Source of the DNA: Streptomyces aquilus
GTDB taxonomy: Bacteria; Actinomycetota; Actinomycetes; Streptomycetales; Streptomycetaceae
NCBI RefSeq assembly: GCF_003955715.1
Contig: NZ_CP034463.1
Span: 1,736,001 to 1,800,000, forward strand
DNA length: 64,000 nt
Direction of reading: 5' to 3'
Every line of letters begins with the position of its first letter. Positions within the stretch are counted from its first letter, which is position 1. Position numbers and translations under genes: made by a program. This document shows, in pieces, positions 16,213-20,736 of the stretch. The notes below the pieces were generated by a model that worked only from the letters and a program-made list of their open reading frames with translations, did not search any database and was not told the DNA's origin.

Positions 16213-16641
16213 TCAGGAGCCCGCGAGGAACGTGAGGCGCACCTTGCGCTGCGGGTTGTCCCTGTTGGTGTCGACCAGGCACACCGACTGCCACGTCCCG
16301 AGTTCCAGCCGCCCGTCGATCACCGGCAGTGTCGCGTGCGGCGGCACGAAGGCCGGGAGGACGTGGTCACGGCCGTGGCCGGGGCTGCCGTGCCGGTGCT
16401 GCCAGCGGTCGTCGGCGGGCAGGAGGGTGTGCAGGGCGGAGAGCAGGTCGTCGTCGCTGCCGGCGCCCGTCTCGATGATCGCGATCCCCGCGGTGGCGTG
16501 CGGGACGAAGAGGTTGAGGAGGCCGTCCCGTCCGGCGGCGGCCTCGCGCAGGAAGGCCGCGCAGTCGCCGGTGAGGTCGACCACGCGCTCGGTCGATCCG
16601 GAGGTGATGTTCAGTACTCGGGTGGTGAACGTGTCTGACAT
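16213..16641 (-). CDS. YjbQ-family (UPF0047) protein
   Basis: A 142-residue YjbQ-family protein. The conserved FVPHATAGIAIIE core and the later FVPPHATLPVIDGRLELGTWQSVCLVD stretch carry the histidines and acidic residues of the family. Members have been annotated as secondary thiamine-phosphate synthases, but that activity is weak and the physiological role is unsettled. An alternative start at 16659 is in frame; neither has a strong ribosome site. It stands alone between the TetR operator region and the sulfonate operon. Confidence 0.85.
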   Translation of the reverse strand: MSDTFTTRVLNITSGSTERVVDLTGDCAAFLREAAAGRDGLLNLFVPHATAGIAIIETGAGSDDDLLSALHTLLPADDRWQHRHGSPGHGRDHVLPAFVPPHATLPVIDGRLELGTWQSVCLVDTNRDNPQRKVRLTFLAGS

Positions 16642-16726
16642 ACCGCCATCGTCACCCATCCGTCAGGCCGCGAGGACGATCCGCCGCCCGCCTCGCGATA
16701 CGGCGGGTCCATTCCGCGAGACGCCA

Positions 16727-16756
16727 TTGACCATGGCCACGCCATCTGGCTACGTT
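16727..16756 (+). promoter_or_regulatory. Promoter giving a leaderless transcript for the leader peptide
   Basis: TTGACC (16727-16732), 18 bases, then TACGTT (16751-16756) resemble a housekeeping promoter. The predicted start point, about 7 bases after the -10 element, coincides with the ATG at 16764, so the mRNA would begin at the start codon. Confidence 0.6.
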
Positions 16757-16763
16757 CGACGGC

Positions 16764-16847
16764 ATGTTGCGTTCAGTCCTGCTCACCACGCGCGGTCACA
16801 TCGACCTGCTGCGGGTGGCCTCCGCCGCGTGTCGCCGCGGCCACTGA
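16764..16847 (+). CDS. Cysteine-type regulatory leader peptide (27 aa)
   Basis: A 27-residue frame carrying HIDLLRVASAACRR, the hallmark of short actinobacterial leader peptides found ahead of sulfur-assimilation and transport genes. Related leaderless Cys-containing ORFs in mycobacteria act as cysteine-responsive attenuators. Here the single cysteine (residue 23) uses TGT, a codon rare in such GC-rich genomes, and is followed by Arg-Arg-Gly-His before TGA. The ATG sits where transcription should begin, with no ribosome site. The sulfonate-type ABC operon follows 145 bases downstream, so the peptide probably tunes that operon to cysteinyl-tRNA supply. Confidence 0.8.
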   Translation: MLRSVLLTTRGHIDLLRVASAACRRGH

Positions 16848-16901
16848 CGCCTTTCACCACCTCTTCCCCGCTTCTGGCATCCGCGCCACCCCCTGTCCGT
16901 C

Positions 16902-16965
16902 CGCGTTTCTGACGTGGCGGCACCCCGGTGCACCGCGTTTCTGACGCGACGACGCCCCGGCGCAC
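16902..16965 (+). repeat. Tandem 32-bp repeat between leader peptide and ABC operon
   Basis: Two abutting 32-base units (16902-16933 and 16934-16965) differ at five positions. Each contains a small hairpin around CCCCGG. In copy two, an A-T pair of the stem is replaced by G-C, a compensatory change. They lie in the presumed attenuator region just ahead of the permease gene. Confidence 0.65.
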
Positions 16966-16992
16966 CCCGCTCTCCCCCTCCGTGGAGCACTC

Positions 16993-17868
16993 ATGAGCAT
17001 CAGCCATGCCCCACCCAGCGCTCCCGAGCCGGATATTTCCGATATACCCGGCAAGGACGGCTCGTTGGAGCTCGAACCCCTCGTCCCCACCTCCTCCCGC
17101 CGTACCCGCGTCCCCCGCTGGTTGCGTCGCACGACCGGTCCCGTGGTCCTGGTCCTGCTGTGGCAGGTCCTCAGCGCCACCGGCGTGCTGGCCTCCGACG
17201 TGCTGGCCTCCCCGGGGCGGATCGCCCAGGTCGGGCGCGATCTGATCGCCGACGGCTCGCTGACCTCGGCCATGGGCACCTCGCTCCAGCGGGTAGCGGC
17301 GGGGCTGCTCCTCGGCACGCTCGTCGGCACCGGACTCGCCCTGGTCTCGGGCCTGTTCAGGATCGGCGAGGATCTGGTGGACGCGCCCGTCCAGATGCTG
17401 CGGACCGTGCCGTTCGTCGGTCTCATCCCGCTGTTCATCATCTGGTTCGGCATCGGCGAGGCGCCGAAGATCGCCATCATCACGCTCGGCGTGACCTTCC
17501 CGCTCTACCTCAACGTCTACGCCGGCATCCGCGGTGTGGACTCCCAACTCATCGAGGCCGGTGAGTCGTTGGGGCTGTCCAGGTGGGGGCTGGTACGGCA
17601 CGTCGTGCTGCCGGGCGCCCTGCCCGGTGCCCTGACCGGGCTGCGTTACTCCCTCGGCATCGCCTGGCTCGCGCTGGTCTTCGCCGAGCAGGTCAACGCG
17701 GACTCCGGGATCGGGTTCCTCATGGTGCAGGCGCGGGACTTCCTGCGGACCGACGTCATCGTGGTCTGCCTGATCGTCTATGCCTTCCTCGGCCTGCTGG
17801 CCGACTTCGTCGTCCGCTCCCTCGAAAGGCTGCTGCTGCAATGGCGACCGACGTTCACCGGCCGGTGA
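16993..17868 (+). CDS. Sulfonate-type ABC transporter permease (SsuC/TauC-like)
   Basis: A 291-residue permease of the nitrate/sulfonate/taurine family with about six transmembrane helices. The cytoplasmic EAA loop is clear in IEAGESLGLSRWGLVRHVVLPGALPGALTGLR, which docks onto the ATPase. It has an unusually long polar N-terminus of some 45 residues. A GGAG site precedes the ATG. First structural gene of a permease-ATPase-binding protein operon behind the cysteine-type leader peptide, supporting import of organic sulfur. Confidence 0.88.
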   Translation: MSISHAPPSAPEPDISDIPGKDGSLELEPLVPTSSRRTRVPRWLRRTTGPVVLVLLWQVLSATGVLASDVLASPGRIAQVGRDLIADGSLTSAMGTSLQRVAAGLLLGTLVGTGLALVSGLFRIGEDLVDAPVQMLRTVPFVGLIPLFIIWFGIGEAPKIAIITLGVTFPLYLNVYAGIRGVDSQLIEAGESLGLSRWGLVRHVVLPGALPGALTGLRYSLGIAWLALVFAEQVNADSGIGFLMVQARDFLRTDVIVVCLIVYAFLGLLADFVVRSLERLLLQWRPTFTGR

Positions 17869-18581
17869 CCGGACACGCGGCGGTGCGCGTCGAGGGGCTG
17901 ACCCGCTCCTTCGACGGCCGCGCCGTCATCGACGATCTCCGACTCGACGTCCGGCAGGGCGAGTTCGTGGCCCTCCTCGGACGCAGCGGCTGCGGCAAGT
18001 CCACCCTGCTGCGCATCCTGGCCGGTCTCGACCGGGACATCGAGGGCACCGTGCTGGTGCCGCGCCGCAAGGCCGTGGCGTTCCAGTCGCCCCGGCTGAT
18101 GCCGTGGAAGAAGGTGTGGCGCAACGTCCTGCTGGGCCTGCCCGGCAAGCCGGGACGCGGCGTCGCCGACCAGGCGCTGGAGGAGGTCGGCCTCGGTCAC
18201 CGCGCGGACGCCTGGCCCAAGACCCTCTCCGGCGGCGAGGCCCAACGCGCCTCCCTGGCGCGGGCGTTGGTGCGGGAGCCCGATCTCCTGCTGCTCGACG
18301 AGCCGTTCGGGGCGCTCGACGCCCTCACCCGTATCAAGGCCCAGCGGCTGGTGGGCGAGTTGTGGCAGCGGCGCGGCTGCGCGGTCCTGCTCGTCACGCA
18401 CGACGTCGAGGAGGCCGTCCTGCTCGCCGACCGCGTCCTGGTGATGGACGACGGGGTCATCGCCCACGAGCAGCACATCGACCTCGACCGGCCCCGCGAT
18501 CTCACCGACCCGCGCTTCGCCGAGCTGCGCGCCGGCCTGCTGGAACGGCTCGGCGTCGACACCGCCGCCGAAGCCGCCTGA
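17841..18581 (+). CDS. Sulfonate-type ABC transporter ATPase (SsuB-like)
   Basis: A 246-residue ABC ATPase: Walker A GRSGCGKST (residues 47-55), signature LSGGEAQR, Walker B LLLLDEPFGALD and switch histidine in VTHDVEEA. The MPWKKVWRNVLLGL Q-loop region is typical of SsuB/TauB/NrtD proteins. The ATG at 17841 overlaps the permease by 28 bases. An in-frame GTG at 17865 would overlap the permease stop as GTGA and is a serious alternative start. It powers uptake with the preceding permease and following binding protein. Confidence 0.9.
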   Translation: MATDVHRPVTGHAAVRVEGLTRSFDGRAVIDDLRLDVRQGEFVALLGRSGCGKSTLLRILAGLDRDIEGTVLVPRRKAVAFQSPRLMPWKKVWRNVLLGLPGKPGRGVADQALEEVGLGHRADAWPKTLSGGEAQRASLARALVREPDLLLLDEPFGALDALTRIKAQRLVGELWQRRGCAVLLVTHDVEEAVLLADRVLVMDDGVIAHEQHIDLDRPRDLTDPRFAELRAGLLERLGVDTAAEAA

Positions 18582-18609: not shown

Positions 18610-19629
18610 ATGCGACGACGCCTCGCCCCCGCCGCCCTGCTCCTCCCGCTCGCCCTCCTGCTCACCGCCTGCGGCGGCAGCGCCACCGCAGGCACCGGCT
18701 CCGACACCGACGGCCAGGGGTCGCTCACCCTCAACGTCGGTGACCAGAAGGGCGGTTCGGAGGCGATCCTGCGGGCCGCCGGGGAGCTCAAGGGCCTCGA
18801 CTACAAGATCAAGTGGTCCACGTTCACCTCGGGCCCGCCGCTGCTGGAGGCCGTCAACGCCAAGGCCGTCGACATCGGCGGGGTCGGCAACACCCCGCCG
18901 GTGTTCGCCGCGGGCGCGGGCTCGAAGATCACGGTGGTGTCCGCCTTCCACGGCACGTCCAAGGGCGACGCCATCCTCGTACCGAACGACTCGAAGCTGA
19001 CGCAGCCCGAGCAGCTCAAGGGCAGGTCCGTTGCCGTGGCGCAGGGTTCGTCCGCCAACTACCAGCTGGTCGCCTCCCTGAAGGCGGCAGGGCTGAGCCT
19101 GAACGACGTGAAGGTCAAGTACCTTCAGCCGGCCGACGCGCTCGCCGCGTTCACGTCCGGCAAGGTCGACGCGTGGGCGGTGTGGGACCCGTACACCTCG
19201 CAGGTGCTCCAGGCGAAGCAGGGGCGGATCCTGACGACCGGCGACGGCGTCACCAACGGGCTCACCTTCCAGGTGGCGGCGCCCTCCGCGCTCAAGGACA
19301 AGAAGAAGGCCGCCGCCATCAAGGACTACCTGGAGCGGCTGCGGCGGGCCACGACCTGGGTGCACGACCACCAGGAGGAGTGGGCGAAGGGCTGGGCGAA
19401 GGACACCGGGCTGCCCTACGAGGTCGCGCTGGCCTCGGTGAAGCGGACCAACGCCACCCGGATCTCGGTCGCCGTCGACAAGCCGCTGATCGCCTCCGAG
19501 CAGGAGATCGCCGACACCTTCACCGAGCTGAAGCTGATCCCGAAGAAGGTCGACTTCGCCGACTTCGTGGACACGCGGTTCAACGCCGACCTGCCGCCGT
19601 CGACCACACCGGCGCGCGGCGAGGGCTAG
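18610..19629 (+). CDS. Sulfonate-type ABC substrate-binding lipoprotein (SsuA-like)
   Basis: A 339-residue lipoprotein (lipobox LTAC near residue 21) with the periplasmic-binding fold of aliphatic sulfonate receptors. Family marks are IGGVGNTPPVFAAGAGSKITVV, LKGRSVAVAQGSSANYQL and VDAWAVWDPYTSQ. It completes the permease-ATPase-receptor set. The leader peptide and family suggest sulfonates such as alkanesulfonates or taurine, but no monooxygenase of the SsuD type is adjacent. The following flavin oxidoreductase is a different family. Confidence 0.88.
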   Translation: MRRRLAPAALLLPLALLLTACGGSATAGTGSDTDGQGSLTLNVGDQKGGSEAILRAAGELKGLDYKIKWSTFTSGPPLLEAVNAKAVDIGGVGNTPPVFAAGAGSKITVVSAFHGTSKGDAILVPNDSKLTQPEQLKGRSVAVAQGSSANYQLVASLKAAGLSLNDVKVKYLQPADALAAFTSGKVDAWAVWDPYTSQVLQAKQGRILTTGDGVTNGLTFQVAAPSALKDKKKAAAIKDYLERLRRATTWVHDHQEEWAKGWAKDTGLPYEVALASVKRTNATRISVAVDKPLIASEQEIADTFTELKLIPKKVDFADFVDTRFNADLPPSTTPARGEG

Positions 19630-19668: not shown

Positions 19669-20736
19669 GTGAACAACACTGAGGTCGTCGTCATAGGCGC
19701 TGGTCAGGCCGGCCTGTCCAGCGCCTATCACCTGCGCCGGACCGGTTTCCGGCCCGAGCGCGACTTCGTCGTGCTGGACCACTCCCCCGGTCCGGGCGGC
19801 GCCTGGCAGTTCCGGTGGCCCTCGCTGACGTACGGCAAGGTGCACGGGATGCACTCGCTGCCGGGGATGGAGCTGACGGACGCCGATCCCGCGCGGCCGT
19901 CCTCCGAGGTGATCGGCGAGTACTTCGACGCCTACGAGCGGACGTTCGACCTGCGGGTGCGGCGGCCCGTGGACGTGCACGCGGTCCGGGAGGGCGAGGG
20001 CGGGCGGCTGCTCGTCGAGACCTCGGCCGGCACCTGGGCGACACGGGCGCTGATCAACGCGACCGGGACCTGGGACCGGCCCTTCTGGCCGCGCTATCCG
20101 GGCCAGGAGACCTTCCGGGGGCGGCAGTTGCACACCGCGCAGTACCCGGGGCCCGGGGAGTTCGCGGGGCTGCGGGTCGTGGTGGTGGGCGGCGGCGCGT
20201 CCGGCACCCAGCACCTGATGGAGATCGCCCCGTACGCGGCCGCCACCACCTGGGTGACCCGGCGGCCGCCCGTCTTCCGTGAGGGCCCCTTCACCGAGGA
20301 CGTCGGCCGGGAGGCCGTGGCGATGGTGGAGGAGCGGGTGCGGCAGGGGCTGCCGCCGAAGAGCGTGGTGTCGGTGACCGGGCTGCCGCTCAACGACGCG
20401 ATCCGGCAGGCCATCGCCGACGGCGTCCTGGACCGGCAGCCGATGTTCGACCGGATCACCCCGGACGGGGTGGCCTGGAACGACGGCCGGCATGTCGACG
20501 CCGACGTGATCCTGTGGGCGACCGGCTTCCGTGCCTCCATCGACCATCTGGCACCGCTGAAGCTGCGCGAGCCGGGTGGCGGGATCCGCGTCGAGGGCAC
20601 GCGCGCGGTCGCCGACGCGCGGATCCACCTCGTCGGCTACGGCCCCTCGGCCAGCACCATCGGCGCCAACCGCGCGGGGCGGGCGGCCGTACGGGACATC
20701 AGGCGGCTGCTGGCCGGGGAGCCGGTCGCCGCCTGA
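19669..20736 (+). CDS. FAD/NAD(P)-binding flavin monooxygenase-like oxidoreductase
   Basis: A 355-residue two-dinucleotide-binding-domain protein. The FAD fingerprint is VVVIGAGQAGLSSAY at the N-terminus and the NADPH one is VVVVGGGASGTQ near residue 170. The ILWATGFR motif near residue 283 is typical of flavin-containing monooxygenases and trimethylamine or lysine hydroxylase relatives. It starts at a GTG with only a poor ribosome site, 40 bases after the ABC receptor gene, and may be part of the same unit. A role in oxidising organosulfur compounds is possible but unproven. Confidence 0.82.
   Translation: MNNTEVVVIGAGQAGLSSAYHLRRTGFRPERDFVVLDHSPGPGGAWQFRWPSLTYGKVHGMHSLPGMELTDADPARPSSEVIGEYFDAYERTFDLRVRRPVDVHAVREGEGGRLLVETSAGTWATRALINATGTWDRPFWPRYPGQETFRGRQLHTAQYPGPGEFAGLRVVVVGGGASGTQHLMEIAPYAAATTWVTRRPPVFREGPFTEDVGREAVAMVEERVRQGLPPKSVVSVTGLPLNDAIRQAIADGVLDRQPMFDRITPDGVAWNDGRHVDADVILWATGFRASIDHLAPLKLREPGGGIRVEGTRAVADARIHLVGYGPSASTIGANRAGRAAVRDIRRLLAGEPVAA

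Follow-up and report, generated by a model that had tools for sequence, protein, structure and literature searches.

At the locus described here, a 27-codon open reading frame (ORF) with its own candidate promoter precedes a run of genes for a probable sulfonate-type ABC transporter, the permease gene of which starts at 16993 and is the next gene after the leader. All coordinates refer to the window, the whole stretch of DNA that was analyzed, which comprises 64,000 nucleotides of the Streptomyces aquilus contig NZ_CP034463.1; orthologous and family regions are designated by L numbers.

16727-16732, plus strand: -35 element TTGACC (sequence; register kept in about 74 of 80 sequences)
16751-16756, plus strand: -10 element TACGTT (sequence; -13 T in 77, -12 A in 78 and -8 T in all 80 of 80 sequences)
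16764-16847, plus strand: leader ORF, 27 codons and stop, presumed leaderless (translation; 32 bits on NF042934, cut-off 27; found in 79 of 80 orthologous loci)
16769-16777, plus strand: predicted 5' arm of helix P1, codons 2-5 (fold; pair counts on 93 sequences)
16781-16819, plus strand: predicted hairpin P2 (fold, pair counts)
16797-16814, plus strand: family motif H-x-D-L-x-R, codons 12-17 (family alignment; 11 to 6 residues before the sensor Cys)
16824-16841, plus strand: predicted hairpin P3 with the TGT sensor in its loop (fold, pair counts)
16830-16832, plus strand: presumed sensor codon TGT, Cys23 (TGT in 80 of 80; motif-terminal Cys of the family TGT in 81 of 84)
16843-16850, plus strand: predicted 3' arm of helix P1, containing the TGA of the leader (fold, pair counts; C, G and C after the stop in 80, 79 and 76 of 80)
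16852-16881, plus strand: C/T-rich, G-poor tract after the leader (C 0.52, T 0.32, G 0.12 at nucleotides 5-34 after the stop, 80 sequences)
16984-16987, plus strand: GGAG Shine-Dalgarno sequence of the permease gene (sequence; predicted less accessible than in 91 control genes)
16993-17868, plus strand: ABC permease, SsuC-like (PF00528; best NCBIfam match SsuC, 235.9 bits, below the cut-off of 347)
17856-18581, plus strand: ABC ATPase, SsuB-like, start codon unsettled (PF00005; best NCBIfam match SsuB, 253.1 bits, below the cut-off of 395)
18610-19629, plus strand: substrate-binding protein, SsuA family (TIGR01728, 193.4 bits, above the cut-off of 163.5)
19669-20736, plus strand: flavin monooxygenase-like protein, next in the gene run (ArsO family, 313 bits, below the cut-off of 425)

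Because the permease and the ATPase match sulfonate models best but below the equivalog cut-offs, sulfonate is given only as the likely substrate of the operon. A divergent, YjbQ-like gene occupies 16213-16659 on the minus strand, pointing away from the leader promoter; its score of 66.9 bits falls short of the 67.75 cut-off.

Leader and promoter

The original prediction had described a TTGACC-N18-TACGTT promoter followed by a 27-residue frame with one cysteine near its end, and sequence and translation agree with this description. The two hexamers (16727-16732 and 16751-16756) are separated by 18 nucleotides, the ATG at 16764 lies 7 nucleotides downstream of TACGTT, and the frame, which ends with TGA at 16845-16847, encodes MLRSVLLTTRGHIDLLRVASAACRRGH, the sole Cys of which is codon 23 (TGT, 16830-16832). 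A generic sigma-70 scan flagged no promoter here, and the support for TTGACC/TACGTT is its conservation and not a consensus score. The distance from the -10 element to the ATG is constant among the orthologs, which supports the leaderless start that had been proposed for this leader.

Immediately 5' of the -35 element, CGAGACGCC (16717-16725) is kept in about 61 of the 80 orthologs if one variable base is allowed. An upstream CGAGAC element was considered as a shared operator and rejected: the combined CGAGAC and TTGAC pattern occurs twice in the genome, once at this locus, and the reversed pattern used as a control also occurs twice, so that there is no sign of a regulon.

Conservation with the operon

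A lack of conservation of the peptide with the operon in relatives had been named in advance as grounds for rejecting the prediction, and the comparison revealed no such lack. The leader was found ahead of the permease gene in 79 of the 80 orthologous loci collected by their permeases (best permease relatives), its stop codon lying 104-377 nucleotides upstream of the permease gene; at the 80th locus (L069) the contig ends 27 nucleotides upstream of that gene. Codon counts were made on 80 sequences (the 79 orthologs and the window), anchored on the stop codon; codon 1 is ATG in 79 of them and ACG in one (L053). In a separate draw of 61 genomes of the genus, 37 carried a permease that matched at E 1e-60 or better, and the remaining 24 lacked one. 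The loci of 30 of the 57 permease matches in this draw were examined (27 were left out, including one at 73% identity). Regarding the 26 close orthologs (at least 73% identity), loci were available for 25, the window's own included, and all 25 carry the leader. Regarding the five loci of distant permease relatives (46-50% identity), two have a different leader of this kind within 1.5 kb and three have none.

The leader block was the best-conserved DNA of the query in several genomes of the genus. Together with the 32-bit family score and the presence in 79 of 80 loci, this places the conservation of the leader, as judged from sequence comparison, far beyond chance. Synonymous-codon identity is 0.949 in the leader versus 0.699 in the permease gene (3160 pairs), and none of 326 permease windows of equal length reaches the leader value (maximum 0.90; 300 sampled pairs each). 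In four other leader groups (10-12 members) it is 0.85-0.89.

The leader family and its genomic setting

By its score of 32 bits on the NCBIfam model NF042934 (cis_reg_atten, "putative leader peptide"; cut-off 27), the peptide of the window is a member of a catalogued family. The genome of the window holds 11 matches to this model (10 above cut-off), 14 control genomes hold none, and 12 further genomes of the genus hold 3 to 13 each; in a draw across the phylum the family was present in 15 of 198 genomes, eight of which belong to the same genus. Each of the 11 matches sits shortly before another gene, and these genes differ. The first genes after the other ten matches encode a ThiS-family protein, a cysteine dioxygenase, a nitrite/sulfite reductase-type protein, two luciferase-like monooxygenases (one of them SfnG, a sulfone monooxygenase, above cut-off), a GST-C protein, a family-5 binding protein, a ROK regulator, a rhodanese/mercaptopyruvate sulfurtransferase-type protein and a flavin reductase-like protein. 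With the operon of the window counted in, at least six of the 11 matches precede clear sulfur-metabolism genes, in line with the sulfur and cysteine setting originally proposed.

These placements bear on whether the ORF might encode a small protein that acts in trans and is no cis regulator. Conservation of the peptide sequence would fit such a protein; the positions of all 11 matches, shortly ahead of other and differing genes, argue against it, as do the near-fixed sensor codon and the frozen nucleotides described below, and we regard it as extremely unlikely.

The cysteine dioxygenase gene (PF05995) is preceded by a leader of the family (L002 and L013; own genome, 7570497-7570553, minus strand). 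As this enzyme degrades cysteine, its leader is expected to need a response of the opposite sign.

The cysteine codon

The family codon set was drawn from 91 members, namely the 11 of the own genome and 80 collected family regions (71 of the 103 matches outside the own genome, all above cut-off, and 9 of the 10 outside the genus), from which orthologs of the window's own leader, recognized by their place, were excluded. Of these, 84 were kept; L210 had no start codon assigned automatically, and L232, L237, L240, L247, L265 and L005 have no motif-terminal Cys.

TGT had been called a rare codon with a special role. It is indeed infrequent in the background, where it makes up 11-16% of Cys codons (17 of 103 in 40 ORFs of the window; 74 of 656 in 412 ORFs of the 80 loci). 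The special role is borne out by position: codon 23 reads TGT in all 80 sequences, and all 51 Cys codons at position 27 are TGC; where Cys is present at codon 24, five codons are TGT and three TGC. In the wider family, 81 of 84 members encode the motif-terminal Cys by TGT, and Cys directly after D-L is TGC in 30 and TGT in 4 of 34; the remaining Cys codons are TGC (57) or TGT (29). Ten of the 11 leaders of the own genome have a motif-terminal Cys, encoded by TGT in all ten. As the members of the family are related, these counts do not represent independent events. Among the tRNA matches examined, a subset of the 74 in the genome, tRNA-Cys genes occur at two places, with the anticodon GCA; UGU would accordingly be read by wobble, which may make it slower and more sensitive. 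Neither the UGU rule nor the stop-codon-pairing domain described below was found in the open-licence papers searched, which is weak evidence. In a separate class of leaders (L005, L237, L240 and L247), Cys lies within RVCSAI or RVCSAL, none is found at the motif end, and the single Cys codon is TGC.

The motif shows a different pattern. Across the 84 members, the third base of the codon after Asp is G in 44, C in 39 and T in one, and that of the Asp codon is C in 70 and T in 14; since the amino acids are constant and their synonymous codons vary, this is a sign of selection on the peptide. Two layers of selection are thus suggested, one on the peptide motif throughout the family and one that freezes codons within the ortholog group of the window's leader.

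Selection on the peptide raises the question of arrest by the nascent chain, in which H-x-D-L-x-R, 11 to 6 residues behind the Cys, would act in the exit tunnel and one Cys codon would suffice; possibly a small molecule would be sensed besides tRNA charging. Such arrest is compatible with attenuation, and both the constancy of the motif amino acids despite varied synonymous codons and the single Cys of the window's leader fit it. The 84 members were, however, chosen by that very motif, so that its invariance is partly built in, and the near-fixed TGT indicates decoding as the sensed step; we consider arrest rather unlikely.

Predicted RNA fold of the leader

The leader RNA is predicted to form a closing helix (P1) and two hairpins (P2 and P3, the TGT lying in the loop of P3). 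In P1, codons 2-5 would pair with the stop codon and the following CGC, the stop codon itself lying opposite codons 3-5. On 93 distinct sequences of 84-nucleotide leaders, to which pair counts were limited, standard pairs fill 98.1% of the pair cells (28-63% when the fold is slid), and third-position variation in 76 sequences is 0.013 at paired versus 0.077 at unpaired sites (permutation p 0.0098), both comparisons leaning towards structure, since P1-P2-P3 was derived from these same sequences. Double changes in pairs (5 in the 93 sequences) were not above the slid controls (0-6).

Three individual cases bear on P1. In L283, codon 3 and the bases after the stop have both changed, and P1 re-pairs without a bulge; the stop codon lies 6 nucleotides later in L287 and 9 nucleotides earlier in L290, and the sequence of the stop region still pairs with UCAGC. 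They lend P1 moderate support, as GC before TGA is common in such genomes.

Its folding energy does not set the leader apart from other RNAs that could encode the same peptide: of 500 synonymous resamples, 16.6% reach an equal or better fold. The 5' end shows no unusual openness in the predicted fold, and the 5' region as a whole is only modestly more stable than shuffled sequence (z -1.61). The frozen nucleotides of the leader nevertheless fit an RNA domain in which the stop codon would pair with codons 3-5. Judged by eye, codons 6-9 of the leader may pair with CGUGGAGCA.

A general rule by which the 5' end pairs with the sensor codon was tried and rejected: over 65 distinct leaders such pairing reached 0.34, as against 0.22 for synonymous controls (Wilcoxon p 0.025, disregarding relatedness), and for the window's leader it was 0.00 versus 0.21. 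The pairing is clear in the sulfurtransferase leaders. In these (e.g., L241 and L243-L246), GCGACAG just after the start pairs perfectly with CUGUCGC, within which the sensor UGU lies; this closing helix differs from that of the window's leader.

Frozen synonymous sites and a conserved fold could also denote a structured RNA element that binds a protein or metabolite, the ORF being incidental. This is very unlikely, given that elsewhere in the family the peptide motif persists although nucleotides and predicted folds differ, and that Rfam covariance models gave no match up to E = 1 in 16500-17100.

Region between leader and permease

An intrinsic terminator, as a classical transcription attenuator would have, was looked for in 16600-17000, and no terminator-like site was found. 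The Shine-Dalgarno sequence of the permease gene has a mean predicted accessibility of 0.14 in 80 sequences versus 0.35 in 91 control genes (p 4e-10, ignoring relatedness), GGAG only being scored for the permease and GGAG, AGGA or GAGG for the controls. According to the folds, this closure is mostly due to local pairing. Sequestration by the leader was rejected: the share of the leader in the pairing is 0.11 on average (median 0.01; 79 sequences), and accessibility is 0.11 with and 0.12 without the leader (lower with it in 49 of 79, average difference 0.01). Rejected likewise was CTCC at codons 19-20 as an anti-Shine-Dalgarno sequence, which is not common to the family.

Stalling was simulated on 60 of the 80 sequences, with folds that pseudoknots would escape. 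A single ribosome footprint at UGU lowered access to the Shine-Dalgarno sequence in 31 and raised it in 6 of the 60 orthologs, and a queued second ribosome gave 24 lower and 8 higher; with the whole leader blocked, access was higher in 22 and lower in 8 (means 0.147 vs 0.126). The proposal that a stall at TGT refolds the RNA so as to switch the operon on found no support in these simulations.

In place of access to the permease start, the output could be Rho-dependent termination within the stretch that follows the leader, which is rich in C and poor in G. At nucleotides -100 to -20 of the permease start, C exceeds G by 0.158 (80 sequences), compared with 0.011 (sd 0.10) for 91 upstream regions used as controls, the 60 nucleotides after 90 family leaders contain C at 0.47 and G at 0.27, and Rho was proposed for mycobacterial Cys leaders in passages of PMC1262725. 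A ribosome stalled at UGU would, however, leave the C-rich tract uncovered, which gives the simple form of this output the wrong sign, and the tract may be merely an anti-Shine-Dalgarno arm. We hold termination by Rho to be a doubtful explanation of the output.

Between leader and permease, a 32-bp unit is repeated about 2.1-2.4 times (16883-16966). In the close relative L021 the spacer measures 104 nucleotides versus 145 in the window, and the repeat may therefore be a local duplication.

Proposed mechanism

Taking these data together, we consider it probable, at roughly 0.8, that a cysteine-responsive, ribosome-mediated leader (an attenuator) controls the sulfonate-type ABC operon. The sensing step is assigned with high confidence, on sequence grounds, to a leaderless cysteine leader in which TGT would be critical. 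The output would be either access to the permease start site or Rho-type termination in the C-rich tract, its sign and step being given as we infer them. From the promoter spacing, transcription would start at the ATG or no more than about one nucleotide away from it, and ribosomes would translate the 27 codons directly from the 5' end of the transcript. With charged tRNA-Cys available, codon 23 would be passed, translation would terminate and the leader RNA would close into P1-P2-P3, the leader's own stop codon then being paired with codons 3-5. With cysteine scarce, the ribosome would halt with UGU in its A site, the P1-P2-P3 domain would stay open, and expression of ssuC-ssuB-ssuA would be changed.

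Of the cysteine-supply attenuator first proposed, the leaderless placement, the conservation, the role of TGT and the sulfur context are supported, whereas the opening of the operon by a stall at TGT is not supported by the folding simulations. Counted against an attenuator are the one Cys codon, as opposed to several in the described mycobacterial cases, and the family member ahead of the cysteine dioxygenase gene, which calls for the opposite sign.

A more specific version of the attenuator is offered tentatively, at somewhat less than even odds. It envisages a two-part cysteine sensor present several times per Streptomyces genome (3 to 13 family matches in 13 genomes), in which a conserved motif of the nascent peptide would slow the ribosome at the moment when a near-obligatory UGU arrives in the A site; this Cys codon would be decoded solely through G-U wobble, and a single one would be sufficient. 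In the sulfonate case the leader RNA would also fold back, the stop codon pairing with codons 3-5, which would reset or gate the leader from one round of translation to the next.

Comparison with known systems

The name of the family NF042934, to which the window's peptide belongs, claims no tested mechanism. The Cys-rich leaders Ms4527A (NF042936) and Ms5788A (NF042933) give weak matches of 22.1 and 14.2 bits, both below the cut-off of 45. The E. coli leader tnaC has in common with the window's leader a short ORF and a possible Rho-type output; it senses free tryptophan via an arrest peptide. The tna operon is cited in passages of PMC1262725.

Like the window's leader, the polycysteine leaderless short ORFs of mycobacteria lie at a presumed 5' end before cysteine or sulfur genes; they have a run of Cys, whereas the window's leader has one, and at most three Cys codons occur among the 79 orthologs. 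In the relevant portions of PMC9031893, PMC9094748 and PMC13236596, cysteine-responsive attenuation by the polycysteine leaders of M. smegmatis is credited to Canestrari et al. 2020, and an excerpt of PMC4633059 describes ribosome occupancy on the Cys leader ahead of cysA2 in the same species. Cys-run leaders had been predicted in 2005 for mycobacteria, P. acnes and B. longum, as excerpts of PMC1262725 have it. Those of Mycobacterium, Propionibacterium acnes and Bifidobacterium longum share with the window, in these excerpts, a Cys near the stop, the absence of a terminator and a pyrimidine-rich tract; they differ in their Cys runs, and no Streptomyces cysteine case is named there. The same excerpts report that changed regulatory codons in the ilvB leader of S. 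coelicolor were without effect on regulation, which is counted against the attenuator reading.

The reannotation of S. lividans lists eight leader peptides, none of them assigned to cysteine in the sections consulted (PMC8079986). One that is named metL there (Table 4 of the same sections) ends in ...RCMCRRMCAF; with its three Cys it might be a cysteine and not a methionine leader. In Rhodobacterales, uORFC-8-2 ahead of cysS is also a candidate ribosome-mediated cysteine attenuator; it differs from the window's leader, according to passages of PMC8632094, in its intrinsic terminator, its two tandem Cys codons and the dominance of UGC.

Since the family has already been modeled and cysteine attenuators are known in mycobacteria, the proposed attenuator represents no novel kind of control. 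In Streptomyces, sulfur supply matters for the making of antibiotics, and cysteine leader control, described in mycobacteria, is here extended to a conserved set of leaders in that genus. Being tied to one position, the UGU rule allows selection on codons to be told apart from selection on the peptide within one short frame, and it bears on whether wobble decoding sets the sensitivity of an attenuator, and the cysteine dioxygenase case bears on how one type of sensor could serve genes that need opposite responses. The UGU codon rule and the RNA fold are worth testing, in a member of an already known kind of leader.
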